The notes beneath the pieces were generated by a model. That model was not told the origin of the DNA, made no database searches, and was given only the letters and a program-made list of their open reading frames with translations. Made by a program: the position numbers and the translations under genes. DNA of 45,355 bases from Mesorhizobium sp. Its GTDB lineage: Bacteria; Pseudomonadota; Alphaproteobacteria; Rhizobiales; Rhizobiaceae. The stretch lies in assembly GCF_017306545.1 (NCBI RefSeq), contig NZ_JAFKID010000034.1, positions 1-45,355 on the forward strand. Reading direction: 5' to 3'. Shown here in pieces: positions 14,461 to 41,373 of this stretch (position 1 is its first letter; each line of letters starts with the position of its first letter).

Positions 14461-16161
14461 TCAGCTCGTTTTGCCTTCCAGTTGTGTCGTGTGTTTCGGC
14501 TTTGCAAGCGGCTCGCGGCCCTTGAGCATCGCCTGCCAATAGATCGGTGGAAGCATCTTCTCCTTCAGGAACCAGGCCAGGCGTGACGGCTTGAGGTCAT
14601 CGATCAGCCATGACGGGAAGCTCGGGACGCGTTTGCCGCCATAGGCAAATTCCGCGAGAACGATCTTGCCGCGTTCGACGGTGAGTGGGCAAGAACCGTA
14701 ACCGTCGTAGATGGCACGGCGGCGTGAATCGAGTTTGCCCATGTCGGCGAGCAGGTTTTCCGCAACGACAGGTGCCTGCTTGCGCGCTGCGGCTGCCGTC
14801 TTGGCGTTCGGTGCGCTCACCACATCGCCAAGGCCATAGATGTTCTCATATTTGGTGTGCTTGAGCGTGTTCTGATCAACCGAGACCCAGCCACTGTCGG
14901 CTGCCAGCGCACTAGCGCGAATGAAGTCCGGCGCGGTCTGGGGAGGAACGACATGGATCATGTCGAACCTGCGCTCAACGATTTCGCTGTTGCCTTCCTT
15001 GCCGGTCTTCTTGAACCATGCCGTCTTCGCCGAACCGTCGATGCGGATGAGATTGTCGCCGAAAGAGAGTTGAATGCCGTATCGCTCAACATACTTCATC
15101 AGCGGCGGGACGTAATCGGCGACGCCGAAGAGACCAGGTCCCGCAACGAGGAACTCGACATTGCAACCTTTGAGGATGCCTTTGTCGAGCCAGGTGTCGC
15201 AGGATAGATACATCGCCTTTTGCGGCGCGCCGGCGCATTTGATCGGCATCGGCGGTTGTGTGAAGAGCGCCGTTCCGCCTTTGAACTCGTTGACAAGCTT
15301 CCAGGTATAGGGCGCGAGATCGTAGCGGTAGTTGGAGGTGACACCGTTCTTGCCCAGCGTTTCGGGAAGGCCTTCGACGCCCGCCCAGTTGAGCTTCAAA
15401 CCGGGCGCAACGACAAGCCATTGATATTTGACGACGCGGCAGCCTTCGAGGACGACCGCGTTGTTGTCGGGATCGAAGGCGACGACGCCGGCCTTGATGC
15501 GCTTGACACCGCGCGGGATAAGCGAATCAAGCTGGCGGCGCGTCTGTTCAGGCGTGAAAATGCCGGCCCCTACTAGCGTCCAGCCGGGCTGGTAATAATG
15601 GACGTCGGCCGGGTCGATGATGACGATGTCAAGATCCTTCGTGCGCGCGAGCATGCTGGCGGCTACGGCGATGCCTGCCGCGCCGCCGCCGACCACAACG
15701 ATCTGGTGGCTTTCGCTCGCCGTGCCGGTCAGGACCCTGCCGCCATTGGCGATACGCGCCGCAACGCCGGAAAGGTCATACCCGGCCGCCTTTCCGGTCG
15801 CGAGAATCTCCGGAACGCTCTTGCCGCCGCGTTCCGCCTCGGACAGTGCCCATAAGGTGGTCGTGCGCGTACCGGTGCGGCAATAGCCGATCACCGGCGT
15901 TGGCAGCGCTTTGAGTGCCTCCGCGAAATCGCTGACATGGGCGTCTGAAAGCTTCCCCGGCGCTACGGGGATGTAGCGCGCCTCCAGTCCCGCTTTTCGG
16001 GCCTCCGCGTTGATCTCGGCGAAAGTGGGCTGATCGTCGCCCTCGCCATCCGGCCGGTTGACGATGATCGATTTGAAACCGGCGTCGGCCGCTTCCCTGA
16101 CCTCGGCAAGCGAGAGCTGCTTCGAAACCGAGAGATGTTCGCTGATTTTCTTCGCTTCCAT
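14461..16161 (-). CDS. DUF442 phosphatase-like domain fused to type II-like sulfide:quinone reductase
   Basis: This 566-residue fusion protein has two parts. Residues 1-about 145 are a DUF442/Blh-type phosphatase-like domain with GYCRTGTRT (Cys94). Residues 153-566 are an SQR-type flavoprotein: VVVGGGAAGIA (156-166), PIKCAGAPQKAMYLSC (Cys309 and Cys321), GLGDVVSAPNAKTAAAARKQAP, and a YGSCPL tail (Cys491). Type II SQRs usually carry the second redox cysteine at the GDC or GDVC position; here it reads GDVV. ATG 16161 is fixed by AGGGAGGATGAC upstream; a longer frame to 16380 runs through the repressor gene. The fusion suggests direct handover of SQR-bound sulfur to the phosphatase/rhodanese-like domain. 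It lies in the prx-blh-bigR-sqr-tauE operon. Confidence 0.9.
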   Translation of the reverse strand: MEAKKISEHLSVSKQLSLAEVREAADAGFKSIIVNRPDGEGDDQPTFAEINAEARKAGLEARYIPVAPGKLSDAHVSDFAEALKALPTPVIGYCRTGTRTTTLWALSEAERGGKSVPEILATGKAAGYDLSGVAARIANGGRVLTGTASESHQIVVVGGGAAGIAVAASMLARTKDLDIVIIDPADVHYYQPGWTLVGAGIFTPEQTRRQLDSLIPRGVKRIKAGVVAFDPDNNAVVLEGCRVVKYQWLVVAPGLKLNWAGVEGLPETLGKNGVTSNYRYDLAPYTWKLVNEFKGGTALFTQPPMPIKCAGAPQKAMYLSCDTWLDKGILKGCNVEFLVAGPGLFGVADYVPPLMKYVERYGIQLSFGDNLIRIDGSAKTAWFKKTGKEGNSEIVERRFDMIHVVPPQTAPDFIRASALAADSGWVSVDQNTLKHTKYENIYGLGDVVSAPNAKTAAAARKQAPVVAENLLADMGKLDSRRRAIYDGYGSCPLTVERGKIVLAEFAYGGKRVPSFPSWLIDDLKPSRLAWFLKEKMLPPIYWQAMLKGREPLAKPKHTTQLEGKTS

Positions 16162-16201
16162 GTCATCCTCCCTGGAAGGGGTTATCGGAAAAGCCGTGCG
16201 A

Positions 16202-16636
16202 TCAAGTGAGCCGCGCGTTTTCCTCCTGATCGAGAAGTCGGGCGAATACCGCCGCGTGAGAACGCGGCTCGGTTCTGGGCTTGCGATCCGCCGGAGGTTG
16301 CGGCGCGGGCCTTCCGGCCACGGTTTGCGGCGTGCAGAAAAGGGCGTGAACGTAGCCGACAAGGGCGCGGGCTCGCGCATCCGTCAGTTTGTAGAAAACG
16401 ATCTTCGCCTCGCGGCGGTCATCGACCAGGCCTGTCTTGCGCAATTCGCCGAGTTGCTGGGAAAGCGTCGGCTGACGGATGCCCAGCTTTTCCTCCATCT
16501 CGCCCACGGACGCTTCCCCCTCCGACAGGCGACAGAGAATCGCGAGGCGATTGGGATTGGCGATAATCTTCAAAAGGTCCGCTGCTTCGACGATCACGTC
16601 GGAGGCTGGCCGTCCGGCAGGCGCCTTTGCCCGCAT
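16202..16636 (-). CDS. bigR: ArsR-family persulfide-sensing repressor (BigR/SqrR type), copy 2
   Basis: This 144-residue winged-helix repressor carries GIRQPTLSQQLGELRKTGL. Cys35 (LAILCRLSEGE) and Cys101 (HALFCTPQ) match the sensing pair of BigR/SqrR. A Pro/Arg-rich C-terminal tail of about 40 residues (from TPQTVAGRP on) is longer than in copy 1. ATG 16636 has GGAG at seven bases; a GTG at 16648 overlapping the MBL stop is an alternative. It is encoded inside the operon it probably represses, between the MBL gene and the SQR fusion. Confidence 0.87.
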   Translation of the reverse strand: MRAKAPAGRPASDVIVEAADLLKIIANPNRLAILCRLSEGEASVGEMEEKLGIRQPTLSQQLGELRKTGLVDDRREAKIVFYKLTDARARALVGYVHALFCTPQTVAGRPAPQPPADRKPRTEPRSHAAVFARLLDQEENARLT

Positions 16637-16638
16637 CG

Positions 16639-17520
16639 CTAGCTCCACGCCGCGCCGTCAAGCGCGTCCAGAGGAAATTTGAGATAGCGCCTGCCGTTGG
16701 CTTCGGGTTCGGGCAAACGGCCACCATTGACGTTCACCTGCAGCGCATGAAGGATGAGCTTCGGCATCGGCAGGGTCCGGTCGCGCGCCTCGCGCAGTTC
16801 GATGAAAGCGGCTTCATTCCCGGTCCTGACCAGATGGATGTTCGCTGCGAGTTGTTCAGCGACGGTCGATTCCCATTTCGGCCGACGGCCGCCGGGCTGA
16901 TAGTCATGTCCTGTGAAGACGCGTGTTTCGGGAGGAAGCGTCACAATCTCCTGGATCGAACGCCACAATCGCGAAGCGCTGCCGCCCGGAAAATCCGCCC
17001 GGGCGGTGCCGCCATCGGGCATGAACAGCGTGTCGTGGACAAAAGCGGCATCTCCGATCACATAGGTAATCGACGCGAGCGTGTGTCCCGGAGAAAACAG
17101 GATCCTCGCGGCGATGTCGCCAACCCGGAACGTATCGCCTTCGGCGAAGAGACGGTTCCATTGCGAGCCGTCGGCCGGAAAATCCGGCCAGTTGTAGATG
17201 TCCTTCCAGAGCCTCTGGACCTCGACCACCTTCTCACCGATGGCCGTCGGCGCGCCGGTGGCGTCGCGCAGATAGCGGGCCGCGGATAGATGGTCGGCAT
17301 GCGGATGCGTATCGAGTATCCACTCCACCGACAGGCTTTCGGCGCGCACGTAGTCGAGAAGCGTATCGGCGCTTTCTGTCTTGGTTGCGCCCGACTTCTC
17401 GTCGAAGTCGAGGACCGGATCGATGATGGCACAGCGGCGCGTCCGCGGGCAACTCACCACATACTGGATGGAAAAGGTGCGAGGATCGAAGAAGCTCTTG
17501 ACGTTCGGCTTGCCGGTCAT
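16639..17520 (-). CDS. blh: MBL-fold persulfide dioxygenase-like hydrolase, copy 2
   Basis: This 293-residue MBL-fold protein is close to the copy at 2259-3149. It has the same metal motifs (THPHADH, SPGHT, HDTLFMPDGGTARADFPGG, FTGHDYQPGG) and the same C-terminus (LPEPEANGRRYLKFPLDAL). It is expected to oxidise glutathione persulfide to sulfite. ATG overlaps the stop of the peroxiredoxin gene by four bases (17517-17520), so the two are translationally coupled. Divergence from copy 1 spread over the whole protein suggests old paralogues or separate acquisitions rather than a recent duplication. Confidence 0.88.
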   Translation of the reverse strand: MTGKPNVKSFFDPRTFSIQYVVSCPRTRRCAIIDPVLDFDEKSGATKTESADTLLDYVRAESLSVEWILDTHPHADHLSAARYLRDATGAPTAIGEKVVEVQRLWKDIYNWPDFPADGSQWNRLFAEGDTFRVGDIAARILFSPGHTLASITYVIGDAAFVHDTLFMPDGGTARADFPGGSASRLWRSIQEIVTLPPETRVFTGHDYQPGGRRPKWESTVAEQLAANIHLVRTGNEAAFIELREARDRTLPMPKLILHALQVNVNGGRLPEPEANGRRYLKFPLDALDGAAWS

Positions 17521-21286: not shown

Positions 21287-21303
21287 CTTAAGCTGGCCTT
21301 AAG
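21287..21303 (+). promoter_or_regulatory. PmrA-box-like direct repeat upstream of L,D-transpeptidase
   Basis: CTTAAG (21287-21292), five bases, CTTAAG (21298-21303) form a direct repeat with an 11-base period, the layout bound by PmrA/BasR-type OmpR-family regulators. It ends 57 bases before the GTG of the L,D-transpeptidase gene. An almost identical element in the same orientation precedes the response-regulator gene at 26327. Confidence 0.65.
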
Positions 21304-21360
21304 GTCCGCCCGAGTTTTTGGGCTTCCATCGCATGCAATGATTCAGAAGGCAAAGAGACA

Positions 21361-22086
21361 GTGAGCGGAAGCGGAACAAGACATACCAGCGTCGTGACAA
21401 GACGCGCTTTGCTGATCGGAATAGGCGTTGTCACTCTGACCGGCTGCGTTTCGACGCGACGGCCGGTCTCGGCCGTGGCGCCCGTGGCGGAGGTAAAGCC
21501 GCAATCGGCCGTTCCGTTGATGTATGCCGCGATGCCGGACGAGAAGTTCCCGATCCCTGCGGTGAAGATCGCCCAGCTCGACCAACAATTTTGGCGCACG
21601 GAGATCGATTATCCCACGAAGGAAACGCCGGGCACGCTGATTGTCGATACGCCGGCCAAATATCTCTATCATGTGAAGCCCAGCGGCCGGGCGACGCGCT
21701 ACGGAATCGGCGTCGGACGTGAAGGCTTCGCCTGGGCCGGGCGGGCTGTCGTCGCCTACAAGCGCAAATGGCCGCGCTGGACGCCGCCCGACAGCATGGT
21801 GGCGCGTCAACCCGAACTCGAACCCTACAGCATCGCCAATGGCGGCATGGATCCGGGCCTGAATAATCCACTCGGCGCACGCGCGCACTATATCCATGAA
21901 GGCGGGCGCGACACGCTTTACCGTCTGCACGGCACGCCGGAAGCATTTTCGATCGGCAAGGCTGTGTCGTCCGGCTGCATCCGTCTGATCAACCAGGATG
22001 TCATTCACCTTTACAACGAAGTCAGGGACGGCAGCCCGATCGTGGTCATCCCCGATCCGACTATGTCGAACATCGCCATCGGCTGA
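21361..22086 (+). CDS. L,D-transpeptidase (YkuD), lipoprotein
   Basis: This 241-residue protein has an N-terminal signal with lipobox LTGC (Cys29) and a YkuD domain. The catalytic HGTPEAFSIGKAVSSGCIRL contains His190 and Cys206. Such enzymes form 3-3 cross-links in peptidoglycan or attach proteins to it, and many are copper-sensitive through the active-site thiol. GTG 21361 gives the natural signal peptide (RRALLIGIGVVTLTGC); the ribosome site is weak. It sits alone on the plus strand opposite the Dsb/Scs cluster and shares its promoter element with the two-component system, suggesting a role in the same envelope stress response. Confidence 0.9.
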   Translation: MSGSGTRHTSVVTRRALLIGIGVVTLTGCVSTRRPVSAVAPVAEVKPQSAVPLMYAAMPDEKFPIPAVKIAQLDQQFWRTEIDYPTKETPGTLIVDTPAKYLYHVKPSGRATRYGIGVGREGFAWAGRAVVAYKRKWPRWTPPDSMVARQPELEPYSIANGGMDPGLNNPLGARAHYIHEGGRDTLYRLHGTPEAFSIGKAVSSGCIRLINQDVIHLYNEVRDGSPIVVIPDPTMSNIAIG

Positions 22087-22110
22087 CGACAGGCAGCGTG
22101 ACGGGGCGGC

Positions 22111-22731
22111 TCAACCCATACGACCGGACGATGCGATGGGCTTTCGGGCGACGAGGTCGATGAGGGCCGACATTCCCGAGTGTCCTGCCCCCTCGTCAAC
22201 CGGGCCGTCATGTTCTTTGAGGTAGCAGATCTCCCAGTGCGCGAACGCGCTTAGCAGAAGCTCGCTGGTGTAGAGTTGCTTGGCATCCGGAGGGCCTCCG
22301 GTTCCATAGCGCAATTGCTCGACGCGGTATCCCTGCATGATGAGCGACCCGCCCGGTTTGAGCGCGGTGTAAAACCCCTCGAACATCCGGTCACGCAGCA
22401 TGGGCGCCGCGAACTGTATAAATATCGCGATCACGACATCATACCGTTCTGCCTCCCATTCCCAAACGGCTAGGTCGGCCTTCACCGTGGTCAGCATCAC
22501 GCCACGCTTGGCAGCCAGCTCCCGCGATTTTTGCAGGCCAACGGATGACGCGTCCACGGCGACGACTTCGAGAGCCTGTTCGGCCAGCCACACGCCGTTT
22601 CGTCCTTCGCCATCGGCGACCGCAAGCACCCGCATCCCGCCTTCGAGCCGGAATGCCTGCGAGACAAGGAACTCGTTTGGCTTTGTCCCGAACAGATAGT
22701 CCGCTCTGTTGTAGCGTTCGTCCCAATCCAT
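22111..22731 (-). CDS. SAM-dependent class I methyltransferase (TehB-like)
   Basis: This 206-residue methyltransferase begins MDWDERYNRADYLFGTKPNEFL, typical of the TehB/thiopurine-methyltransferase-like group. SAM motif I is VLAVADGEGRNGVWLA, followed by VVAVDASSVGL and the motif IV region YDVVIAIFIQF. Substrate unknown; homologues methylate tellurite, thiols or other toxic compounds. ATG 22731 has GAGG at six bases, and the longer frame to 22824 has no matching sequence. It lies downstream of the tlpA/dsbD/dsbA genes on the same strand (126-base gap) and converges with the L,D-transpeptidase. Confidence 0.85.
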   Translation of the reverse strand: MDWDERYNRADYLFGTKPNEFLVSQAFRLEGGMRVLAVADGEGRNGVWLAEQALEVVAVDASSVGLQKSRELAAKRGVMLTTVKADLAVWEWEAERYDVVIAIFIQFAAPMLRDRMFEGFYTALKPGGSLIMQGYRVEQLRYGTGGPPDAKQLYTSELLLSAFAHWEICYLKEHDGPVDEGAGHSGMSALIDLVARKPIASSGRMG

Positions 22732-22857
22732 GTTCAACCTCGACCCCACCTCAAGCAGATCGCACCCCGATGACGCGTCCTTTGCCTCCAATATTATGCC
22801 GGGTTTTGCGTTCCCGGTAGCCACGGCCGTCGTAGAGGATCGATGTCGATCCGACGG

Positions 22858-23661
22858 TTAACGCGAGGGGGCGATCTTGCCGATGTTTGTGTCGAGGGCC
22901 TCTTTCGATATCTCGCCCATATGCAGCGAGGCCAGCGTGCCGTCGGCGCGCAGGAACAGCGTCGTCGGCATGCCGGGCGCGCTATAGTAGCGCGGCAGGC
23001 GCATGGCAGGATCGAGCATGACATGGTCGAGGGCCAGATTCTCACCGACCAGATAGGCGCGAATCGTCTCCGCGCTTTCACCCTGATTGACGAACAAGAA
23101 GGTGACGTCGGTGCGGGCTGCGGCCGTTTTCGCCAGCAACGGCATTTCCCGGCGGCATGGCGGGCACCAGCTTGCCCACAGGTTGACGACGGCCGGCTTG
23201 CCTGCGAAAGTGCTGAGCGCCACCAGCGCGCCGTCCATCTGCTCGAACGCCATGTCAGGCGCCGGCTGGCCAAGCGTCGCCTTCGTCAGTTGAGCGGCAC
23301 CTGCCCAGACGAGCGCGCCGAGCCCGAGTGCGGCGGCCGCCGCAGCACCGGCCTTGAACGAGCGGATATAAAAGACGCTGACGAGGAGAACGCCGGCAAA
23401 GCCTGCGGCGGGCTCGAAGCCACCCTGCCAGACAGCTATCGCGCGCCATGGCTCGTCTCGGAAGTTTTGCCAATGCAGCACCACATGGCCGAAGCGCGCG
23501 GCGGCTAGACCGCCGATCAGCGCCCATGACGACCACGGACCGATCGCGCGGTCGACGCGGCGGGCCAGGATCGCGGTCAGGATCAGGAAGGCGACGATGC
23601 CGAGGATGGCGGCGAGGCGATCCGAAGCGAAGACGAAAGGACCGATGGCAATGCCGTTCAT
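22858..23661 (-). CDS. TlpA/ScsD-like thioredoxin with Lgt-like membrane domain
   Basis: This 267-residue protein has two parts. Residues 1-about 125 form a four-helix membrane region containing GGLAAARFGHVVLHW and FRDEPWRAIAVWQGGFEP, which resembles the GGRLGYVLFY...AVWQGGMSFHG part of prolipoprotein diacylglyceryl transferase. Residues 130-267 form a TlpA-type thioredoxin fold with WCPPC (Cys166, Cys169) and a cis-Pro in GMPTT. The thioredoxin domain should face the periplasm and receive electrons from the DsbD homologue whose gene overlaps it by ATGA. The trio DsbA-DsbD-TlpA matches ScsC-ScsB-ScsD of the copper-tolerance Scs system. The Lgt-like part probably lacks transferase activity (inference). 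Confidence 0.82.
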   Translation of the reverse strand: MNGIAIGPFVFASDRLAAILGIVAFLILTAILARRVDRAIGPWSSWALIGGLAAARFGHVVLHWQNFRDEPWRAIAVWQGGFEPAAGFAGVLLVSVFYIRSFKAGAAAAAALGLGALVWAGAAQLTKATLGQPAPDMAFEQMDGALVALSTFAGKPAVVNLWASWCPPCRREMPLLAKTAAARTDVTFLFVNQGESAETIRAYLVGENLALDHVMLDPAMRLPRYYSAPGMPTTLFLRADGTLASLHMGEISKEALDTNIGKIAPSR

Positions 23662-25508
23662 TGCGCGCTTTCCATCCGGCTTGCCGAGGTTTTAAGCGTG
23701 GTCTTAGTGACATCGCCGACCAGACGCGTCCCCGCCTTTTCGCGACCATTGGCATCGACGAAGATCATCGTCGGCGGGCCGGCCACCTGAAGGCTTTGCA
23801 TCATCTGCCGCTGCACCGGAGAATTGTCGCTGACATCGAGCTCGACGAGGTTGAAGCCGGCAAGCTTTGCCTGAATGGCCGGGTCTGGCAAGACACTGCG
23901 GTCGATGACGGTGCAGGTCACGCACCAGTCGGCAGTGACATAAAGCAGGCTCGGCCGGCCATCGGCATCGGCGATTTGCGCCTGGAGTTCGCCGGGATTG
24001 CCGACAGCGTGAAACGCAATCCGTTCGCTCTTGCCGATAGTCACGTCAGAGTGCATTGCCACGAGCCCGCTGAGCGGACGCAGCGGATCGTCCGCGCCGC
24101 TGGCCGCGCCCACAGCCAGAACCGCGCCGTAAAGGCCCGCCGCAAGGCCCGCCGCCTTGGCTGTTCGCCTTGCGCCGCCGGCATCGACGCTCAACGCATC
24201 GAACGCGCCCAGCCAGACGGCGATGCCGATGGCAAACAGCGCCCACAACGCGAGCGTGGCCTGTGGCGGCAACAGGCGTGAGAGCATCCAGATCGCCGTG
24301 GCGATGAAGATGAAGCCGAAGGCCTGTCGCACCGCGTTCATCCACGCGCCGGCCCTGGGCAAGGCCTTGGGGCCGAGCGTGCCAAAGATGATGAGCGGCA
24401 CGCCTTGGCCGAGACCGAGCGCGAAGAGCGATGCCGCGCCCAGCGTCACATCTCCGGTTTGGGCGATATAGATCAGGGCGCCGGCGAGCGGCGCCGTCAC
24501 GCAAGGGCCGACGATAAGCGCGGAAGTGAAGCCGAGAAGTGCTGCGGAAGCCAGAGAGCCGCGTCGGCTACGGCCGAGGCCGCCAACCGCTTTGACCCAT
24601 GCCGAAGGCAGTTGCAGCTCGAACAGGCCGAACATCGACAACGCGAAGACAAGGAAGAGTGCGGAAACGGCGCCGATGGCGAGCGGCGACTGCAAGGCCA
24701 TCTGCAAATTCTGGCCCGACCATGCCGCTGCCACGCCGAGCAGGCCGAAGGCCGATGCCATCGCCAGCACATAGGCAAGCGACAGGGCGAAGCCGCGCGC
24801 CAGCGTCGGCGCCTCACCCTGCCGGGCAATCGTGCCCGCAAGGATCGGATACATGGGAAACACGCAAGGCGTGAACGCCAGAAGCATGCCGAACAGCATG
24901 AAGCTGCCGAGTACCAGCACTACACCGCCTCGGGCCAGCAGCGAGCCGACCATGCCACTGTCGTTGTCGGCAATCGCAATCGGGCTGGACGGAGCTGACG
25001 GTTCCGGCGCCGACCATTGGCTGGCGAGCGCGGTTGCCGCGTGGTCGCCGGGCGAGGCGACGGCGAGCGTCGCGGCATCGACGTGCCTTACCTGCGGCGG
25101 ATAACAGATGCCGTTCTCCTGGCAACCCTGATAGCGGACCTCGAGCGAGCCTGCATCCCCGGCCAGCGGCACCGCAAGCGCGGCTCGGTCGTGATAGACG
25201 GTGGTGACGCCGAAAGTCGGATCGTCCTTCGACTGCGGATTGCCTTCGGCTTGCGCAACCGCGAGTTCTTCCTGTCCGAGCTTCAGGGCGAACCGGTCCT
25301 GATAGAGGTAATAGCCGGTGGCGATGGTCCATTCGAGCCTGACAAGCCCGTCATCGACCCGCGTTGCGGCGAGCCGAAAAGCCTGGTCGGGTGGTAGCGG
25401 CATCGCGCCGCTGGATGTCACCTGCGCGAAGCCGGGCGAAGCCAGTAGCGATGCGATCAGGGCCAACACTACAGCGACGAGGGCGGATCGAATGGATTTC
25501 AGGGACAA
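23658..25508 (-). CDS. DsbD/ScsB-like thiol:disulfide interchange protein
   Basis: This 616-residue protein has all three redox pairs of DsbD: the periplasmic alpha domain after a signal peptide (VRYQGCQENGICYPP, Cys129/Cys135), the membrane domain (FTPCVFPMYP, Cys215; VGPCVTAPLAG, Cys336) and the gamma thioredoxin domain (TADWCVTC, Cys529/Cys532). It moves electrons from cytoplasmic thioredoxin to periplasmic partners. The gene lies 47 bases after the DsbA-like gene and overlaps the TlpA-like gene, so it should reduce both. In Salmonella and Caulobacter the equivalent ScsB serves ScsC and protects against copper and peroxide; the same role is inferred here. Confidence 0.92.
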   Translation of the reverse strand: MSLKSIRSALVAVVLALIASLLASPGFAQVTSSGAMPLPPDQAFRLAATRVDDGLVRLEWTIATGYYLYQDRFALKLGQEELAVAQAEGNPQSKDDPTFGVTTVYHDRAALAVPLAGDAGSLEVRYQGCQENGICYPPQVRHVDAATLAVASPGDHAATALASQWSAPEPSAPSSPIAIADNDSGMVGSLLARGGVVLVLGSFMLFGMLLAFTPCVFPMYPILAGTIARQGEAPTLARGFALSLAYVLAMASAFGLLGVAAAWSGQNLQMALQSPLAIGAVSALFLVFALSMFGLFELQLPSAWVKAVGGLGRSRRGSLASAALLGFTSALIVGPCVTAPLAGALIYIAQTGDVTLGAASLFALGLGQGVPLIIFGTLGPKALPRAGAWMNAVRQAFGFIFIATAIWMLSRLLPPQATLALWALFAIGIAVWLGAFDALSVDAGGARRTAKAAGLAAGLYGAVLAVGAASGADDPLRPLSGLVAMHSDVTIGKSERIAFHAVGNPGELQAQIADADGRPSLLYVTADWCVTCTVIDRSVLPDPAIQAKLAGFNLVELDVSDNSPVQRQMMQSLQVAGPPTMIFVDANGREKAGTRLVGDVTKTTLKTSASRMESAQ

Positions 25509-25555
25509 GCACAGGCTCCGGGCGCGAGGACGAACAGGCAGAGACTCGAACAGAG

Positions 25556-26197
25556 CTACTGGGAGGCCCCAGCCTGCTTGGCGCGGGCATCCGCGATCAC
25601 CTGCTTGAAGCCCTTGTAGTCGAGGGTGGATGTCATGAACGGGCCTATGAGATAGGTCGGTGTTCCGGTGAGGCCCAGCGCATCCGCCTGCGCCATGTTG
25701 CGCTTGATGATCGACTCGATCTCTGCCGATTTGGCCTTCATGTCGGCGTCGAGACGGCGCATGTCGATGCCGGCGGCCTGCAAGGCCTTACGCATCTTTT
25801 CCTTTGAAACCCCCGAACCGGGAATGGCCATCAGTGCATGGTGGGCACCATCATATTTGCCCTGATATTTGGCGGCCAGCGCTAGTTTGGCGCCGTCGAT
25901 CGAAGTCGGACGGATGACGGGCCAGTCCTTGTAGACCAGCCGAACCTCGCCGTCTTCCTTGACAGCGCGGTCGAGGTCCGGCGCGCTCTTCTTGCAGAAG
26001 GGGCAATTGTAATCGAGGAAGGCGACGATGGTGACATCGCCCTTCGGATCGCCGCCAACGGGTGCCGCCGGATCGTTGAGGATCATCTCCTTCGAGACAT
26101 CGGCAAATTGCGCAAGGGCGCTGCGCCCCATAAAAGGCGTGGCAAGAACGCCGGCGCCGATGGCGAACAATGCGTGGCGGCGCGAAAGGCCTGTCAT
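25556..26197 (-). CDS. DsbA/ScsC-like periplasmic thiol oxidoreductase
   Basis: This 213-residue protein has a signal peptide with a twin-arginine-like start (SRRHALFAIGAGVLATPF, cleavage near ALAQ) and a DsbA-type thioredoxin domain of the Com1/ScsC class. The active site is YNCPFCKK (Cys65, Cys68) and the cis-Pro loop is LTGTPTYLIG. ATG 26197 has GGAG at seven bases; an in-frame ATG at 26239 has no such site. It may act as an isomerase or reductase rather than an oxidant because a DsbD homologue is encoded directly downstream. It is divergent from the two-component operon, across the PmrA-like box. Confidence 0.88.
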   Translation of the reverse strand: MTGLSRRHALFAIGAGVLATPFMGRSALAQFADVSKEMILNDPAAPVGGDPKGDVTIVAFLDYNCPFCKKSAPDLDRAVKEDGEVRLVYKDWPVIRPTSIDGAKLALAAKYQGKYDGAHHALMAIPGSGVSKEKMRKALQAAGIDMRRLDADMKAKSAEIESIIKRNMAQADALGLTGTPTYLIGPFMTSTLDYKGFKQVIADARAKQAGASQ

Positions 26198-26264
26198 TCG
26201 AAATCTCCGTGCTGGTCTGATATCGGTTACGTTGGGCATGTTGACGCCCTGATCCCTGCTGAAC

Positions 26265-26281
26265 CTTAAGGCTGGCTTAAG
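26265..26281 (+). promoter_or_regulatory. PmrA-box-like direct repeat upstream of the response regulator
   Basis: CTTAAG (26265-26270), five bases, CTTAAG (26276-26281) repeat the pattern at 21287-21303, including GCTGG-type spacer bases and a following GTC. It ends 45 bases before the response-regulator ATG and starts 67 bases before the divergent DsbA ATG, so it could control both directions. Autoregulation by the regulator it precedes is the simplest reading. Confidence 0.68.
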
Positions 26282-26326
26282 GTCGCCATTGATCCTGTGT
26301 CGTCATCAGAATCTGGACGGGATTTC

Positions 26327-26992
26327 ATGAGAGTGCTGGTGGTCGAGGACGACGCGGTATTGCTGAACGGCCTTCAGGTGGGTCTCGGCCTTGCCGGCTT
26401 TACGGTGGAGGCCGTCGCGACTTGCGCCGACGCATCGGCGGCGCTGGACACGTCGGTGTTCGACGCTATCGTTCTCGACCTGATGCTCCCCGATGGCTCG
26501 GGGCTCGATGTTCTCGCCGCGTTGCGACGGCGGCAATCCAGGGTTCCGGTGCTGCTTCTGACCGCGCGCGACAGCGTGCCGGACCGCATCGCCGGACTGG
26601 ACGCCGGCGCTGACGATTATCTCGGCAAGCCATTCGATCTCGATGAGGTCGGCGCGCGGCTACGCGCCATGGTGCGTCGGTCCGGCGGCCATGCAGCGGC
26701 GACGTTGCAATGGCGTGATATCGTGCTCGATCCGGCAAGCATGGGTGCTACGCGTGGTGGGCAACCGGTTCGACTGTCGCGCAGGGAGTTCTCGATCCTG
26801 CGCGCCCTGATCGACCGTCCGGGGCAGATCTTGTCCAGGTCGCAACTGGAGGAGCGGCTCTATGGCTGGCAGGAGGAAATCGAGAGCAACGCTATCGAAG
26901 TCCATATCCACAATCTGCGCGCCAAGCTGGGGCCGGGCATCGTCGAAACCGTGCGCGGGGTAGGCTATCGCATGGCGGAGGCCGGCCTATGA
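26327..26992 (+). CDS. OmpR-family response regulator (PmrA/QseB-like)
   Basis: This 221-residue regulator has a receiver domain (VLVVEDD near the start, phospho-acceptor Asp51 in IVLDLMLPDGSGLDV, LLLTARDS, conserved Lys in YLGKPFDLDE) and a winged-helix DNA-binding domain (LSRREFSILRALIDRPGQ, SNAIEVHIHNLRAKLG, VRGVGYRM). This is the PmrA/QseB/TctD class. ATG 26327 is chosen because the natural domain starts there; the frame is open to 26297. It overlaps the kinase gene by ATGA. Expected target: the CTTAAG-N5-CTTAAG boxes at 26265 and 21287. Confidence 0.92.
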   Translation: MRVLVVEDDAVLLNGLQVGLGLAGFTVEAVATCADASAALDTSVFDAIVLDLMLPDGSGLDVLAALRRRQSRVPVLLLTARDSVPDRIAGLDAGADDYLGKPFDLDEVGARLRAMVRRSGGHAAATLQWRDIVLDPASMGATRGGQPVRLSRREFSILRALIDRPGQILSRSQLEERLYGWQEEIESNAIEVHIHNLRAKLGPGIVETVRGVGYRMAEAGL

Positions 26993-28377
26993 GATCGATC
27001 CGGGCGAGGCTTTTCACGATCCTGCTGGTGACGACCGGCATCGTATGGTTGTCGGCGATTGCGTGGATCTATCTCAGCACCAAGGCGGAGGTCGAGCGCG
27101 TGCTCGATGCGCGCCTGACCGAAGCGGCGCGCATGGTCAGTTCGCTGATCACCAGCCAGGAAATCGCCATCAGGAAGGCGGGCGGGGTTCCGGCTATGGT
27201 CGCGGTTCCGCATGTCTCCTATGATCGGCAGCTTTCCTGCCAGATATGGGGGTTCGACGGTACGTTGGTCGGGCGCTCAGAAAGTGCGCCGGGTCAACCA
27301 CTCACGGCCGCCAAGTCGGGATTTTCCGAGACGACGATCGACGGCGAGACCTGGCGGGTTTACGCCGTCGCGAATCCCGAACTCGGCATTCGGGTGCTGG
27401 TCGGCGACAATCTGTATGTCCGCGATCGCCTTGTCGCCGATGTCATTCGCGGCCTGGCGTTTCCTGCCTTGCTCATCCTCCCGGTCCTCGCTGCCCTGCT
27501 GTGGCTGAGTGTGGGAAAAGGGCTCGCACCGTTGGCCGCCATAGCAAGCGCGCTTGGCGTGCGGCGCGCATCGGATTTGAGCGCCTTGCCCGACAATGAC
27601 AGCCCATCCGAAATCAAGCCGGTGATCCGTTCGCTGAACGGGCTGTTTGCGCGCGTCAGCACGGCGCGCGAGCGTGAGCGTGATTTCACCGCTTTCGCCG
27701 CGCATGAACTGCGCACGCCGATCGCCGGCCTCAAGACGCAGGCGCAAATCGCGCTCGGCAGCAACGATGAAGCCATCCGCAACAACGCGCTACGCCAGAT
27801 CACGGTGGGCGTCGACCGCACGGCCCGGCTGGTGCGCCAACTCACCGACCTGACGAATGCCGAAAGCGGCGAACTCGACGATGACGCGGGCCACGTCGAT
27901 GTCGGCCGCACCCTGCAAGCACTGGCCGACGATATCGGGCAGCACCATCGCGATGCGGCGTCCTTCTCGATTTCCGCGGAACTCGCGCGGCTGGAACTTG
28001 GTGTCAATCCGTCATTGTTCATGGTTGGCGTCCGCAACCTGCTTGAAAACGCGGTCCTGCACTCGCCGCCCGACAAGCCTGTTCGCTGCGATTTGCGGCG
28101 TGACCAAGGCTTTGAGGCCATCACCATCGACGATTGCGGTCCCGGTATTCCCGAGGATGAATTGCCGAAGGTTTGCAGCCGCTTCTTTCGCGGCCGCAAC
28201 CAGACGGCGGCCGGCAGCGGGCTCGGCCTGGCAATCGCCAATCTGGCGGCGGAACGCATGGGCGCGCGCCTCTATCTGGAGAACCGCGCCGAGGGTGGCT
28301 TGCGGGCAGAACTGCGGTTCAAGAAAACCGTCCGTAACGGCAAGGCCGCGCAGGGGAACGAAATCAGACCGATTTGA
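26989..28377 (+). CDS. Sensor histidine kinase (QseC/PmrB-like)
   Basis: This 462-residue kinase has an N-terminal membrane helix (about 8-30), a periplasmic sensor of roughly 125 residues, a second helix (about 157-175), a HAMP-like linker, the phospho-acceptor His239 in FAAHELRTPIAGLK, and an ATPase domain (NLLENAVLHS, DDCGPGIPEDE, GSGLGLAIA). The sensor resembles QseC but has a cysteine (Cys84 in RQLSCQIWGFDG) where QseC relatives usually have a non-cysteine residue. A thiol- or metal-related signal would fit the adjacent Dsb/Scs genes; this is inference. Confidence 0.92.
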   Translation: MRSIRARLFTILLVTTGIVWLSAIAWIYLSTKAEVERVLDARLTEAARMVSSLITSQEIAIRKAGGVPAMVAVPHVSYDRQLSCQIWGFDGTLVGRSESAPGQPLTAAKSGFSETTIDGETWRVYAVANPELGIRVLVGDNLYVRDRLVADVIRGLAFPALLILPVLAALLWLSVGKGLAPLAAIASALGVRRASDLSALPDNDSPSEIKPVIRSLNGLFARVSTARERERDFTAFAAHELRTPIAGLKTQAQIALGSNDEAIRNNALRQITVGVDRTARLVRQLTDLTNAESGELDDDAGHVDVGRTLQALADDIGQHHRDAASFSISAELARLELGVNPSLFMVGVRNLLENAVLHSPPDKPVRCDLRRDQGFEAITIDDCGPGIPEDELPKVCSRFFRGRNQTAAGSGLGLAIANLAAERMGARLYLENRAEGGLRAELRFKKTVRNGKAAQGNEIRPI

Positions 28378-28788: not shown

Positions 28789-29097
28789 TTATTTGTGCCC
28801 GCTGGTTGTACAGTAAGCCAAATGCAATGCTCCGACGACGGTCAATACCTCGGGTCGGGCAATCGAGTAATAGACGGTGGTGCCCTCGCGGCGCGCCTCC
28901 ACCAGGCCATCTGCCCTCAAACGCATGAGTTGCTGCGACATCGGTACTTGTTCGATGTCGAGTTCCCGACGCAATTCGGCAACGGACTTCTCGCCATCCA
29001 CCAATGCGCACAGCACCAGCAGACGCTGCGGGTGTGACAGACTGCGCATCAACTCGGCGGCCGAACTTGCCGCAGGGATCATATCTGATACATTCAT
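28789..29097 (-). CDS. ArsR-family persulfide-sensing repressor (BigR/SqrR type), copy 3
   Basis: This 102-residue winged-helix repressor carries the recognition segment VPMSQQLMRLRADGLVEARREG and the wing TTVYYSIA. Cys30 (LLVLCALVDGE) and Cys96 (LHLAYCTTSG) match the sensing pair of BigR/SqrR. It begins MNVSDMIPAASSAAEL at ATG 29097; a later ATG at 29082 is possible and the frame is open to 29133. It is divergent from the type I SQR at 29231, with a 16-base dyad (29092-29107) over its own start, so it probably represses both itself and the SQR/efflux operon. Confidence 0.86.
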   Translation of the reverse strand: MNVSDMIPAASSAAELMRSLSHPQRLLVLCALVDGEKSVAELRRELDIEQVPMSQQLMRLRADGLVEARREGTTVYYSIARPEVLTVVGALHLAYCTTSGHK

Positions 29098-29107
29098 GCT
29101 ATTGAAT
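29092..29107. promoter_or_regulatory. ATTC-N8-GAAT dyad, candidate SqrR-type operator
   Basis: ATTC (29092-29095), eight bases, GAAT (29104-29107). This equals the ATTC-N8-GAAT operator I recall for Rhodobacter SqrR and covers the start codon of the divergent repressor gene. AT-rich sequence with TATAAA-like elements lies alongside (29108-29130), where the divergent promoters must be. Confidence 0.5.
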
Positions 29108-29230
29108 TTATAAAAACTGAATGTTATATGCAAGCCCGAAACGTTCGGGAAGCCAATGATTGGGGCCGACTAACCTTACGGTTGGGCGGCGGGCAATAAC
29201 CAGCGCCAGGCTTCAAATGGAGGAGATGCA

Positions 29231-30523
29231 ATGTCTCATGTCGTCATACTCGGAGCAGGGCTCGGCGGCGTCATCATGGCCTACGAAATGAAGGCCAAGT
29301 TACGGCGTGAGGATCGCCTGACCGTAGTCAATCTTGGTTCGACCTACTCGTTCGTGCCTTCCAATCCTTGGGTCGCAGTCGGCTGGCGGCAGCCCAAGGA
29401 CATAACGGTGGACCTCGGTCCGATAATGAGGAAGCGCGGCATCGAGCTTCGCCTGGAAGGGGCCGAGCGGGTGGAGCCGGCCCTGAACCAGGTACGGCTC
29501 AACGGCGGCGACGTCGTGGACTACGACTACCTCGTCATCGCCACCGGACCGGACCTTGCTTTCGACGAAGTGCCGGGACTCGGTCCCAGTGCCCACACGC
29601 AGTCCGTCTGCCAGACCGATCATGCCCTTCAGGCAAAATCCGCCTTCGACAAGCTCGTCAAGGCGCCGGGACCTGTCGTGATCGGGGCGGTGCAGGGCGC
29701 ATCATGCTATGGTCCGGCCTACGAGTTCGCCTTCATCCTCGACGCCGCGCTTCGCAACGCCCGCATGCGCGACCAGGTGCCGATGACATTTGTCACGCCC
29801 GAACCCTATATCGGCCATCTCGGGCTCGACGGCGTCGGCGACACGAAGGGGTTGATGGAAAGCGCCATGCGCGAGCGCCACATCAAGTGGATCACGAATG
29901 CGCGCACGACGAAGGCCGACCCCGACAAGCTTTTCGTCGAGGAGGTCAACGACGACGGCTCCATCAAAGCGACCCATGAGCTACCTTTTGCTTTCTCTAT
30001 GCTCCTGCCGGCTTTTCGGGGCGTGCCCGCCGTTACCGGCATCGAGGGGTTGACCAATCCACGCGGCTTCGTGATCATCGATAAATACCAGCGCAACCCC
30101 GGCTTCCCGAACGTCTTCGCGATCGGCGTTTGTGTTGCCATCCCGCCGGTGGGCAAGACGCCACTGGCTGTCGGGGTGCCGAAGACCGGTTTCATGATCG
30201 AATCGATGGTCATGGCGACGGCGGAGAACATCGCGTCGCTGCTGAAGGGCGAGGAGCCGAAGGCGACCGCCACGTGGAACGCGATTTGCCTCGCCGACTT
30301 CGGTGACGACGGCATCGCCTTCGTGGCGCAGCCGCAGATCCCGCCGCGCAACGTGAACTGGTCGTCGCAGGGCAAATGGGTGCATGCCGCCAAGATCGGC
30401 TTCGAGAAGTATTTTCTCCACAAGGTCCGGCAGGGAAAGACGGAAACCTTGTACGAGAACCTCGTGCTCGACATGCTGGGCATCAAGAAACTGAAAGAAA
30501 TCCACATCGAGACCGCACGGTAG
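29231..30523 (+). CDS. sqr: Sulfide:quinone oxidoreductase, type I
   Basis: This 430-residue flavoprotein oxidises sulfide to polysulfide or persulfide and passes electrons to quinone. The FAD motif is VILGAGLGGVIMAYE at the N-terminus. The three cysteines of type I enzymes are at the right places: Cys127 (HTQSVCQTD), Cys159 (GAVQGASCYGPAYEF) and Cys353 (NAICLADFG), against 128, 160 and 356 in the Acidithiobacillus enzyme; Cys301 is extra. The C-terminus has the amphipathic membrane-binding region (KYFLHKVRQGKTE). RBS GGAGGAG lies just upstream. It heads the operon with DUF2892 and the efflux genes, divergent from repressor copy 3. Confidence 0.92.
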   Translation: MSHVVILGAGLGGVIMAYEMKAKLRREDRLTVVNLGSTYSFVPSNPWVAVGWRQPKDITVDLGPIMRKRGIELRLEGAERVEPALNQVRLNGGDVVDYDYLVIATGPDLAFDEVPGLGPSAHTQSVCQTDHALQAKSAFDKLVKAPGPVVIGAVQGASCYGPAYEFAFILDAALRNARMRDQVPMTFVTPEPYIGHLGLDGVGDTKGLMESAMRERHIKWITNARTTKADPDKLFVEEVNDDGSIKATHELPFAFSMLLPAFRGVPAVTGIEGLTNPRGFVIIDKYQRNPGFPNVFAIGVCVAIPPVGKTPLAVGVPKTGFMIESMVMATAENIASLLKGEEPKATATWNAICLADFGDDGIAFVAQPQIPPRNVNWSSQGKWVHAAKIGFEKYFLHKVRQGKTETLYENLVLDMLGIKKLKEIHIETAR

Positions 30524-30554
30524 GCGCGGTTCGGCAACAGAAGGAATATAGACG

Positions 30555-30761
30555 ATGACGCTCGATCGTGCCGTGATGATGTTCGCCGGCTTCATGGTTC
30601 TCCTGTCCTTGGCGCTGGGGTTCTACGTGTCGCCGTGGTGGTACCTGTTGAACGCCTTCGTCGGGTTGAACCTGATACAGGCATCCGTGACCGGCTTCTG
30701 CCCCGCGGCGATTGCCTTCCGCTTGTTTGGAATCAAGGCCGGCCGCGCCTTCAAGGGATAG
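30555..30761 (+). CDS. DUF2892 membrane protein, copy 2
   Basis: This 68-residue protein has two membrane helices and the conserved end GFCPAAIAFRLFGIKAG, in which the cysteine of the family's CP motif is kept. It starts MTLDRAVMMFAGFMVL with AAGGAA upstream. It lies 31 bases after the type I SQR and is probably cotranscribed. Role unknown; the family recurs beside SQR and rhodanese genes. Confidence 0.85.
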   Translation: MTLDRAVMMFAGFMVLLSLALGFYVSPWWYLLNAFVGLNLIQASVTGFCPAAIAFRLFGIKAGRAFKG

Positions 30762-30832
30762 CGGCTTGCCTGGCCGCCCTCCACGTTCAGCGGGCGCGTC
30801 GTCGACATTGCCGCCCGAACAGGGATCATATC

Positions 30833-31846
30833 ATGCTTCGATCCATTTCCTGGTTTGCTATTGCCGTTCTTTCGACAGCGGTAACGCTTGCCAGCCCAGC
30901 ATCCCAGGCGGCCGAATTCGTCGTGCGGCCTCTTGTCGTTCCTGAAATGAAGGCGGTTTTCGGTGAGGTCGAGAGCCGCACAGTGGTTCCGGCCCGCGCG
31001 CGGATCTCGGGCACGATCGGCGAAATAGGCATCAGCGAGGGAAGCGGAGTAAAGGAGGGCGAGGTGATAGCACTTGTCGTCGACGACAAGATCGCCCTTC
31101 AACTCGCCGCGGCCGAAGCCAGGGTCAAGGCCCTCCAGTCGCAACTGGCCAATGCCCGCCTGGCCGTCGACCGGGCTCAGCAATTGCAGACACGTGGCGT
31201 AACGGCGCAAAGCCAACTCGACGCGGCGAACACGCAGCTTAGCGTCGTAGCCAATCAAGTCGCGGCCGCGGAAGCGGAGAAGGCCGTCATTGTGCAGACC
31301 GCGCGCGAGGGCAGGGTTCTCGCCCCCGCCAGCGGCCGCGTCCTGACGGTGCCGGTGACGCCCGGCTCCGTCATCCTAGCGGGCGAGGAAATCGCACGTG
31401 TCGCAACCGGACCCTATTACCTGCGACTTTCTCTGCCCGAACGCTATGCGACACAGATCGAGGAAGGCGCCTCCGTCGAAGTGGAAGAGCGCGGCCGAAA
31501 CCACGCGTCTGGTACGCTCGCCACGAAGTTGCACGGAAAAATCGTCAAGGTCTATCCCGAGATCGTGGACGGGCGCGTCATAGCGGATGTCGATGTCGAC
31601 AACATCGGCAATTACTTCGTCAACGAGCGGACATTGGTTTCGATCCCTATCGCCAAGCGTTCGGTGCTTGCGGTCCCGCCGGAAGCCGTCCAGACATTAC
31701 ACGGTATCGACTATGTCCGCATCGCCACGGTGAACGGAACACTCGATGTTGCGGTCATTCTCGGCGAACGTCTCGAGGTTGGCGGCGATAAATGGGTCGT
31801 GGTCCTGACCGGGCTGCATGATGGCGACAAGGTCGTTCTGCCATGA
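30833..31846 (+). CDS. RND efflux periplasmic adaptor (membrane fusion protein)
   Basis: This 337-residue protein has a signal peptide (cleavage near SQAAEFV) and the adaptor order: beta-barrel/lipoyl halves around a coiled-coil hairpin. The first lipoyl half is ARISGTIGEIGISEGSGVKEGE, the coiled coil runs roughly residues 90-155 (AEARVKALQSQLANARLAVD...), and the second half is APASGRVLTVPVTPGSVI. It links the RND pump to an outer-membrane channel, which is not encoded here. ATG 30833 overlaps nothing upstream, and its stop overlaps the pump start by ATGA. Confidence 0.88.
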   Translation: MLRSISWFAIAVLSTAVTLASPASQAAEFVVRPLVVPEMKAVFGEVESRTVVPARARISGTIGEIGISEGSGVKEGEVIALVVDDKIALQLAAAEARVKALQSQLANARLAVDRAQQLQTRGVTAQSQLDAANTQLSVVANQVAAAEAEKAVIVQTAREGRVLAPASGRVLTVPVTPGSVILAGEEIARVATGPYYLRLSLPERYATQIEEGASVEVEERGRNHASGTLATKLHGKIVKVYPEIVDGRVIADVDVDNIGNYFVNERTLVSIPIAKRSVLAVPPEAVQTLHGIDYVRIATVNGTLDVAVILGERLEVGGDKWVVVLTGLHDGDKVVLP

Positions 31847-34800: not shown

Positions 34801-35115
34801 GTCGACTTCATCCGCCATTCAAGGGGTACGGACAGGGAATTGATCGACGTGCTCCTGGAGGCGGGCGCCATCCGCTTCAAGCCTATCCTGCTCACTGCCC
34901 TTGCCGCTATGATCGGTGCGGCGGTGATCCTCGCCGACCCGATCTTCCAGGGCCTTGCGATCTCGCTGCTGTTCGGTCTCGCCTCATCGACGGCTCTGAC
35001 CGTTCTCGTAATTCCGGCCATCTATATCGTGCTGAGAGGAGAAAAACACTCGAGCCGCCGCCGGCAGCCTCCCGAAGCAGCGGTAGCGGCCCCGGTCCCG
35101 CCCTCATCAAGCTGA
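31843..35115 (+). CDS. RND-family efflux pump (AcrB/MexB-like)
   Basis: This 1090-residue inner-membrane pump has the 12-helix RND layout with two large periplasmic loops. The proton-relay aspartate pair is seen in FSIGILVDDATVVIENIAR, and the matching helix 10 region is AGIIVRNSILLVDFIRHS, with Arg where AcrB has Lys. It lacks the charged pattern expected for heavy-metal (CusA-type) pumps, so it is closer to drug or small-molecule exporters. It is the third gene after the type I SQR, so export of sulfur-stress products or of toxic compounds induced together is possible. Substrate unknown. Confidence 0.9.
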   Translation: MKSAAPGLGLAGNLTRAFISSPLTPLFLLAALALGLVALITLPREEEPQISVPMVDIHVTANGLKAADAEKLVTEPLETIVKSIDGVEHVYSQTEDNGAIVTPRFQVGTNADTAVLRVQEKIDANMNRIPVGIPAPLIVGRGIDDVAIVVVTLRPTSDAASHWTANGLTRLARELQFELAKVPNIGLTYIVGEQPERIEVEPDPEKLSLYGITLQQLVAKIDGANQSFRIGTVRENGQQRAIVAGQTLQELPQIGNLLLTARDGRPVYVRDVAKVVLATSPAENRVTDIRKTAEGLEVAPAVSLAIAKRPGTNAVVIAHDIIKRLQEVRGQIFPKDVEMAVTRDYGHTANEKANELLFHLGLATVSIVILVAIAIGWREALVVAVVIPTTILLTLFAARIMGYTLNRVSLFALIFSIGILVDDATVVIENIARHWAMNDGRSRASAAIDAVAEVGNPTIIATLTVVAALLPMLFVSGMMGPYMSPIPANASAAMLFSFFVAVMLTPWLMVKVGKRDAGGHGHAPGEVGRLGRFYVAVARPILKSRARAWAFLVVVGFATLASMGLLYTEQVTVKLLPFDNKSNLQVVVDLPKGSSVEDTNRSLQEIVKRLATVPEIVSFQTYAGTAAPFDFNGLVRHYYLRSNPEQGDVTVDLLEKGDRERTSHAIALDIRERLRDLDLPAGSTVKVVEPPPGPPVLATLLAEIYGPDPATRRAVAQKVREIFKSIPFIVDVDDSFHNQAERVRVSIDQDNLEYYRVEQSDVYDTLNTLYGGTTVGYSHRGGGRQPIPIRIALPKGRSVMDERALSTPVPANALPGGRGVVELGDVVSVSREPASWPIFRHNGHPAEMVMADLAGAYEAPIYGMLAVDDAIAKADWGKLPKPVISFHGQPDDETHPTLLWDGEWEVTWVTFRDMGAAFMVALLGIYILVVAQFGSFKVPLVILTPIPLTLIGIMFGHWLFAAPFTATSMIGFIALAGIIVRNSILLVDFIRHSRGTDRELIDVLLEAGAIRFKPILLTALAAMIGAAVILADPIFQGLAISLLFGLASSTALTVLVIPAIYIVLRGEKHSSRRRQPPEAAVAAPVPPSSS

Positions 35116-39383: not shown

Positions 39384-39456
39384 TCTCGCCGGGGGCTCGA
39401 TGTCCGCGGCTTCTTCGGCCCATCAGAAACGGGACCATTGTCCCGGGGAGACGACC

Positions 39457-41129: not shown

Positions 41130-41373
41130 TGGCATGGATGAGGAGTGAGCGGTCGGTGCGCCCGATGCTGTTAAGGTGTTGGGAGAGGCGGATAGGTTTC
41201 AGGCTGGATGTGCATTCTAGGGCCATTGACCCTGTACAGGAGATTCGCCGTCGCCTGCTTCCGAACGACCATCTTGAGGCCCGGTTATGGCCGGTGACCT
41301 CGCATAGGAGTTTGGGTCGGCCGTTCACGCCCCTTTCGGGGTTCCGCCTCCCGCCAACGGGGAGATGTTAGCA
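41130..41373 (+). ncRNA. Candidate bridge-RNA region, left end of IS110-group element
   Basis: About 240 non-coding bases precede an intact IS110-group transposase whose 3' side has almost no non-coding sequence. This layout matches IS110-group elements such as IS621, where the left end encodes the bridge RNA that pairs with target and donor DNA. Short stems are visible, such as CCCC-TTTC-GGGG near 41330 and a GGCC...GGCC palindromic pair near 41279-41296. The left boundary is a guess. Confidence 0.35.

Follow-up and report, generated by a model that had tools for sequence, protein, structure and literature searches.

The stretch of DNA analysed here (the window, 45,355 nucleotides) belongs to a Mesorhizobium sp. 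(NCBI RefSeq assembly GCF_017306545.1, contig NZ_JAFKID010000034.1, positions 1 to 45,355) and contains two copies of the repeat CTTAAG-N5-CTTAAG, here called boxes, beside genes for an L,D-transpeptidase, a set of thiol-redox proteins and a two-component regulatory system. An earlier note on this DNA had proposed that the boxes are PmrA-type operators that join these genes in a small regulon. The locus comprises the following features:

21287..21303, strand undefined: putative operator 1, exact match, 57 bp 5' of the called GTG start of the L,D-transpeptidase gene
21361..22086, plus strand: L,D-transpeptidase, probable lipoprotein (Pfam YkuD 66.6 bits; SSGCIR motif)
22111..22824, minus strand: S-adenosylmethionine-dependent methyltransferase (Pfam Methyltransf_25)
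22858..23661, minus strand: TlpA/ResA-like thioredoxin with membrane segments (Redoxin/AhpC-TSA; ResA and TlpA models below cut-off)
23658..25508, minus strand: DsbD, transmembrane thiol reductase (DsbD_TM and DsbD_N; NCBIfam DsbD 495.4 bits against a cut-off of 330)
25556..26239, minus strand: DsbA-like periplasmic thioredoxin with a CPFC motif (DSBA 65.0 bits)
26265..26281, strand undefined: putative operator 2, exact match, between the divergent dsbA and regulator genes
26327..26992, plus strand: PmrA/QseB-type response regulator of 221 aa (Response_reg and Trans_reg_C), predicted binder of both operators
26989..28377, plus strand: QseC-like sensor kinase (2CSK_N, HisKA and HATPase_c; Cys84 codon at 27238-27240)

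Pfam matches confirm the gene neighbours named in the earlier note, namely a YkuD L,D-transpeptidase, an OmpR-family regulator with its kinase, and divergent genes for DsbA-like, DsbD and TlpA-like proteins. The transpeptidase combines the YkuD domain with the SxGCxR catalytic motif of its family and has two cysteines, C29 in the lipobox and the catalytic C206, which are kept in 17 of 21 and 21 of 21 aligned sequences, respectively. DsbD falls within its family, with six cysteines conserved in all 14 aligned sequences, and the CxxC motif is found in 16 of 17 aligned DsbA-like and 7 of 7 aligned TlpA-like proteins. The DsbA-like protein may start at an inner ATG at 26197, and the regulator ATG at 26327 lies 45 bp from operator 2. 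The methyltransferase is possibly an accessory of the locus, which its gene also adjoins in one near relative (L135; loci of relatives carry L numbers and genomes G numbers).

Operator 1 reads CTTAAG-CTGGC-CTTAAG and operator 2 reads CTTAAG-GCTGG-CTTAAG, both being exact and followed by GTC, as originally described. Their assignment to the plus strand cannot be read from the half-sites, since CTTAAG is its own reverse complement; direction is carried by the spacer and flanks only. Two six-base TTAA-type half-sites separated by a 5-bp spacer are the layout of a PmrA box. A scan of the whole genome (4,818,058 bases in 66 contigs), a check that the earlier note had advised, returned the window pair as the only sites with fewer than two mismatches, in agreement with its impression that no other copy exists; 20 further sites have two mismatches each. 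Scaling back from these 20 gives an expectation of about 0.03 exact sites and a probability of about 6e-4 for at least two, composition being ignored, so that two exact sites within the same 5 kb are unlikely to reflect chance. Shuffling the window 100 times yielded a mean of 0.27 sites at up to two mismatches, with three shuffles reaching two sites.

The conservation of the box was assessed in the best 80 loci of a longer list of regulator matches. Clade loci were those with at least 60% regulator identity (23 loci, L011-L032 and L038), leaving 57 others. In the comparison of gene neighbourhoods between these two groups, several loci are truncated by contig ends, and the identity and score thresholds were set by us. 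Together with the window sequence, the 23 loci form one clade with a support of 1.0 in both the regulator tree and the kinase tree. An exact box lies just 5' of the regulator gene in 22 of the 23 clade loci. Of the 57 others, only two (L044 and L052) have one no more than 150 bp from the regulator, and two more (L046 and L064) have a one-mismatch box there. The spacing is strict. In the 328 kb of the 21 loci L011-L031, the 5-bp spacer accounts for 32 CTTAAG pairs while 30 other spacers yielded none, and seven control palindromes in the same loci gave at most one pair at any single spacer. The other 59 loci contain 14 pairs at spacer 5 and three in total over the 30 other spacers. Searching 22 clade genomes in full retrieved exact boxes in 21, and five extra copies of the system in four clade genomes (L150, L152, L153, L154 and L156) each have their own exact box, 41-57 bp from the regulator match. 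Genes in relatives were called by open reading frame (ORF) heuristics, with some starts and a few frames wrong (for example ORFs over a box), so box-to-gene distances there should be taken as estimates; only those to the regulator rest on starts that were read individually.

A sample of 199 genomes of the order gives a similar picture, although L029 and L145 look like the same genome and this set and the clade-search set are hence not fully independent. Exact boxes are present in 25 genomes and a regulator of at least 64% identity in 14. All 14 regulator genomes contain the box (13 of 13 without the window's own genome), compared with 11 of the 185 genomes that lack the regulator (Fisher p = 4e-15, uncorrected for relatedness). 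These 14 genomes hold 23 exact sites, and the 185 others 11. The box lies 40-75 bp 5' of the regulator match in 12 of the 14. In G098, it is placed between the transpeptidase-regulator genes and dsbD; G124 has an exact box elsewhere and a one-mismatch box between transpeptidase and regulator. The same box-regulator wiring, as read from sequence, recurs in many alphaproteobacteria and suggests a stress response in which wall cross-linking is tied to the protection of cysteines in the periplasm. We consider it highly probable that both boxes of the window are operators bound by the adjacent regulator, and the box appears specific enough for target prediction genome by genome.

The spacer tends towards S-C-W-G-S: among 56 distinct exact sites, C occupies position 2 in 44 and G position 4 in 50, and 18 sites are fully self-complementary except for the central base. 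Thus, the operator consensus is near-palindromic, which would suit two-way activation from one site between divergent operons. In flank tables of the relatives, A at 12 bp and T at 15 bp from the box are over-represented towards the regulator, with a mirror image on the opposite flank. These positions, whose counterparts in the window fall in the flanks 26240-26264 and 26282-26326, are possibly -10 elements of divergent promoters. In L141 and L148, the regulator and kinase genes are divergent rather than in one operon, and in L148 the box lies between them.

The regulator is of the OmpR/PhoB type, its receiver and Trans_reg_C winged-helix domains both scoring above the Pfam cut-offs. Its nearest solved structures are BasR/PmrA entries (Klebsiella; 8jo2/4s04, E about 1e-47), in line with the PmrA-type operator layout that the earlier note had suggested. 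By NCBIfam cut-offs, it is neither PmrA (230.6 bits, cut-off 330) nor QseB (213.4 bits, cut-off 345) itself. Modelling has assigned base contacts of PmrA to its residues N188, H193 and H195 (PMC3973317). All 24 clade regulators have the three residues, which are also frequent outside the clade (N188 in 57, H193 in 46 and H195 in 41 of 57) and so mark the PmrA/QseB type and not this clade.

The kinase finds its best NCBIfam model in QseC (246.4 bits, cut-off 475); a heavy-metal kinase model gives 136 bits (below cut-off) and PmrB 130 bits (cut-off 314), and by these cut-offs it is none of the three. What sets the clade apart is a cysteine in the sensor region. Comparing 73 kinases (24 from the clade and 49 others, eight of the 57 other loci having given no full-length kinase) shows that all 24 clade members have Cys84, within the motif RQLSCQIW, and that none of the 49 others has a cysteine at the aligned place. 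Aligned sequences from the order set (13 of 13 loci) and from the extra copies (5 of 5) have it as well, L139, L146 and L148 included. A second cysteine in the sensor region occurs in 4 of the 23 clade relatives. In a structure model built from 23 sequences (mean predicted local distance difference test score 84), Cys84 lies in the first strand (residues 83-88) of a small beta domain that is flanked by two long helices, and the region matches the QseC membrane-domain structure 2kse (E 1.7e-4). By analogy with the family, the two helices would span the membrane and the beta domain would be periplasmic. A structure search with the kinase model returned mainly kinase cores and nothing on the sensor domain among the best 50 of 701 matches.

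The association of transpeptidase, Dsb and regulatory genes, which the earlier note had read from a single locus, proves to be a conserved trait rather than a coincidence of the window. A transpeptidase gene is present in 19 of the 23 clade loci and in none of the 57 others. The same contrast is seen for the DsbA-like protein (17 of 23 versus 0 of 57), DsbD (13 of 23 versus 1 of 57) and the TlpA-like protein (7 of 23 versus 2 of 57). The TRANSPEPTIDASE link is apparent among the 37 L,D-transpeptidase genes in the relatives' loci: the six closest to that of the window (L014, L024, L025, L135, L138 and L143; 65-79% identity) each have an exact box 33-50 bp 5', while all remaining ones share at most 56% identity with it. 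In L014 and L025, the transpeptidase box is the regulator box; in the other four it is separate. Found 5' of the regulator at 22 of the 23 clade loci and also 5' of these six genes, the box shows the conservation at homologous loci that the earlier note had left to be compared. At least two L,D-transpeptidase genes occur at the locus in L014, L018 and L135, one immediately following a box and a second one within or close to the dsb cluster, and L015, L020 and L021 contain an extra distant type (29%) lacking the SxGCxR motif.

Further genes adjoin boxes elsewhere, as judged from the part of all box-adjacent genes that was annotated. Exact boxes stand separately at DsbA-like and DsbD-TlpA genes in L012, L135 and L151, and at thioredoxin-fold genes in L135 and L138. 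Exact boxes adjoin SoxB-like and SoxA-like genes in L150, a box in L020 stands between a SoxB-like gene and cbb3-like oxidase genes, and a cytochrome c with a SoxA-like gene adjoins a box in L135 and L136. Boxes also adjoin cbb3-like genes in L135, DsrE in L136, DoxX in L023 and L154, and SorA-like sulfite dehydrogenases in L140 and, after TlpA, in L152. At the level of loci, the Blh-type dioxygenase (7 of 23 clade loci versus 1 of 57 others), TauE (7 of 23 versus 0 of 57) and an ArsR-type repressor (4 of 23 versus 0 of 57) recur with the clade. The surroundings of the window locus contain genes for a TauE exporter, a fusion of sulfurtransferase and sulfide:quinone reductase (SQR), a Blh-type dioxygenase domain and a peroxiredoxin, together with cydAB, an SQR-like flavoprotein and a BigR-like repressor that scores below cut-off.

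L,D-transpeptidases work through a catalytic cysteine, which must stay reduced in an oxidising compartment, and to our knowledge their protection or replacement under thiol stress has been little explored outside E. coli. The computed features set out above (the sites, their conservation, their tie to the regulator clade and to close transpeptidase homologues, the conserved cysteine and the recurrent gene partners) are the starting point for what we infer: that the regulator binds the boxes and acts as an activator, not a repressor, which signal the system answers, and that the reductases repair the transpeptidase. We propose that thiol-reactive sulfur species in the periplasm would act on Cys84 of the kinase, which would phosphorylate the regulator, and that the phosphorylated regulator would bind both boxes. 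Operator 2 would serve the regulator-kinase operon and the divergent dsbA-dsbD-tlpA genes, and operator 1 the L,D-transpeptidase gene. The regulator would in this way raise the Cys-dependent transpeptidase, the Dsb chain and its own expression, and the DsbD-fed reductases could keep the catalytic thiol of the transpeptidase reduced. An L,D-carboxypeptidase of the same fold has been found with sulfenic acid on its cysteine in the crystal (PMC4599014).

A regulon of two operators with a thiol-linked role is likely. That its signal is of the thiol type we favour on balance, and that it is specifically a sulfur species is plausible while falling somewhat short of probable; persulfide, tetrathionate or sulfite would be the favoured compounds because of the genes that share a box or locus with the system elsewhere. 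Taken as a whole, the hypothesis that an undescribed clade of QseC-like kinases senses reactive sulfur via one periplasmic cysteine, and through a near-palindromic PmrA-type box induces Cys-dependent wall cross-linkers and their own thiol-repair chain, coupling sulfur metabolism to 3-3 cross-linking, is a tentative one. A conserved regulon that places such an enzyme and its reductases under a kinase with a lone sensor cysteine would open the thiol protection of transpeptidases to direct tests, and alphaproteobacteria would have, at the membrane, an equivalent of BigR and other sulfide sensors of the cytosol. The box type, the regulator type and the gene products are of known kinds. For a clade with a sensor cysteine, a near-palindromic operator and the pairing of wall cross-linker with thiol reductase, no recognisable description was found among the papers listed by searches of the open-access PMC literature.

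Several observations weigh against the proposed regulon and its signal. The Sphingobium clade member (L032) has only a two-mismatch box at its locus and is again the one without an exact box in the whole-genome search. The lone Cys84 could bind a metal instead. The NCBIfam scores of the Sox-, SorA- and cbb3-like proteins do not reach the cut-offs, and no significant enrichment at clade loci was seen for cydA (2 of 23 versus 0 of 57), peroxiredoxin (1 of 23 versus 0 of 57) or RND genes (4 of 23 versus 8 of 57). Moreover, boxes stand at seemingly unrelated genes, such as a chemotaxis receptor (MCP, L157) and an RTX protein (L159), and several further boxes have no informative neighbour. The sequence CTTAAGTGGAACTTAAG occurs five times, in either orientation, in one Bradyrhizobium elkanii genome (G210; L153, L154, L155 and L160) and looks like a seemingly unrelated repeat element with an accidental pattern.

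An alternative signal, general oxidative or disulfide stress (peroxide, hypochlorite or diamide) acting via Cys84 on the same operators and genes, would agree with the lone conserved sensor cysteine and with the frequency of thioredoxin-fold proteins among the box-linked genes. The recurrent persulfide dioxygenase, TauE, Sox-like and SorA-like genes would, however, go unexplained by plain oxidants, and we regard this signal as rather unlikely. Copper, again with operators and regulon unchanged, would inactivate L,D-transpeptidases and mis-oxidise periplasmic thiols, and the system would be an Scs-like copper response. Inhibition of Cys-dependent L,D-transpeptidases by copper is cited in PMC8630537, ScsC proteins have been tied to copper (PMC8900818, PMC5524982), and the window contains a multicopper oxidase gene (39169-41010) and an RND efflux pair (30635-35115). 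Yet of the annotated box-adjacent genes, which are part of all such genes, none was recognised as coding for a copper pump or chaperone, the RND genes are not enriched at clade loci, and QseC is a better match to the kinase than the heavy-metal kinase model (246 versus 136 bits, both below cut-off). A copper signal is quite improbable.

In a true PmrA/PmrB system for lipopolysaccharide modification, to which the box layout and the PmrA-like recognition helix would point, the transpeptidase would be a side member. With no lipid A modification gene beside the annotated boxes (part of all boxes) and with scores below the model cut-offs (PmrA 230.6 versus 330; PmrB 130 versus 314), we consider such a system highly improbable. 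Finally, the boxes might be a palindrome recurring by chance or a spreading repeat element. One exact site is also found in 11 of the 185 genomes without the system, the G210 repeat happens to contain the pattern, and a reversed control pattern with GAATTC halves is commoner than the box, both in the 199 genomes (50 versus 34 sites) and at up to two mismatches in the window's genome (110 versus 22). Raw frequency alone is thus insufficient to decide the matter. It is the strict 5-bp spacing, the fixed place 5' of the regulator and the co-occurrence with the regulator that led us to reject a chance origin, which we hold to be scarcely credible.

Among known systems, the locus resembles the PmrA/PmrB (BasRS) system of enterobacteria in its operators and QseBC in its kinase. 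Like PmrA/PmrB, it has TTAA-type half-sites five bases apart and an OmpR-family regulator with the same key recognition-helix residues. The verified PmrA boxes of Salmonella consist of CTTAAG and XTTAAT with a 5-bp gap (PMC3973317). Here, in contrast, each half-site is a perfect CTTAAG, the spacer shows the SCWGS tendency, the predicted targets are periplasmic thiol and wall genes, and neither regulator nor kinase reaches its cut-off for PmrA or PmrB. The likeness to QseBC lies in the best model of the kinase (QseC), its match to 2CSK_N and that to 2kse. The pair nevertheless scores below the QseC and QseB cut-offs, and none of the 49 other kinases in the comparison has the sensor cysteine.

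ScsABCD (suppressor of copper sensitivity) combines a DsbD-like membrane protein and partners that resemble DsbA and TlpA, as does the window locus, whose membrane protein, by contrast, scores above the cut-off of the DsbD model itself; the comparison with Scs covers these components. In E. coli, work attributed to Depuydt in 2009 is said to describe the protection of single-cysteine L,D-transpeptidases by DsbD and DsbG. The window likewise places DsbD-fed periplasmic reductases alongside a Cys-dependent L,D-transpeptidase, with the difference that the partners are predicted to be under one dedicated two-component system and that the reductases are DsbA- and TlpA-like. A DsbG-like protein of H. 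pylori is reported to reduce a putative L,D-transpeptidase in vitro (PMC3463561).

The window locus and some relatives also resemble the BigR/Blh operon in having a Blh-type dioxygenase, TauE and a BigR-like repressor nearby. BigR, which is inactivated by H2S and polysulfides (PMC5823870), is a one-component repressor, whereas the window system includes a kinase in the membrane. Sulfur compounds, as proposed here, are also the signals of other two-component systems, among them the sulfide sensor NreBC of Bacillus licheniformis (PMC9918477) and the thiosulfate and tetrathionate sensors of Shewanella (PMC5408782). The passages describing these sensors mention no wall or Dsb genes.

Several features of the wider window adjoin the locus. 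A minus-strand gene at 14461-16380 encodes a 639-aa fusion protein, in which a TIGR01244/Blh-type sulfurtransferase domain (residues about 77-208) is followed by a sulfide:quinone reductase-like flavoprotein (226-637). In the Blh model, the transferase is instead linked to a dioxygenase, a half that is here encoded by a separate gene at 16639-17520. The region 3' of the kinase gene (28789-35115) contains the BigR-like ArsR repressor (below cut-off), the SQR-like flavoprotein and the probable RND efflux genes, the RND label of the pair at 30635-35115 coming from the first ORF reading and from matches of relatives. The multicopper oxidase gene at 39169-41010 lies further downstream.

IS110-family transposase genes flank the region at 5164-6057 and 41365-42435, and a regulator orthologue was found in none of the three same-genus genomes of the order sample, one of which has a 49% relative. 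The block may therefore be an acquired island. A plasmid origin was rejected: megablast of a 17.4 kb section gave matches in 91 plasmid records, each of which covers less than 80% of the query, and the ten matches listed cover at most 14% of it, over the stretch that contains cydAB. On the minus strand at 9192-10691, a frame matches catalase HPII with 420 bits (cut-off 1102) over model positions 78-489 of 752 and is either a shorter or a broken catalase.

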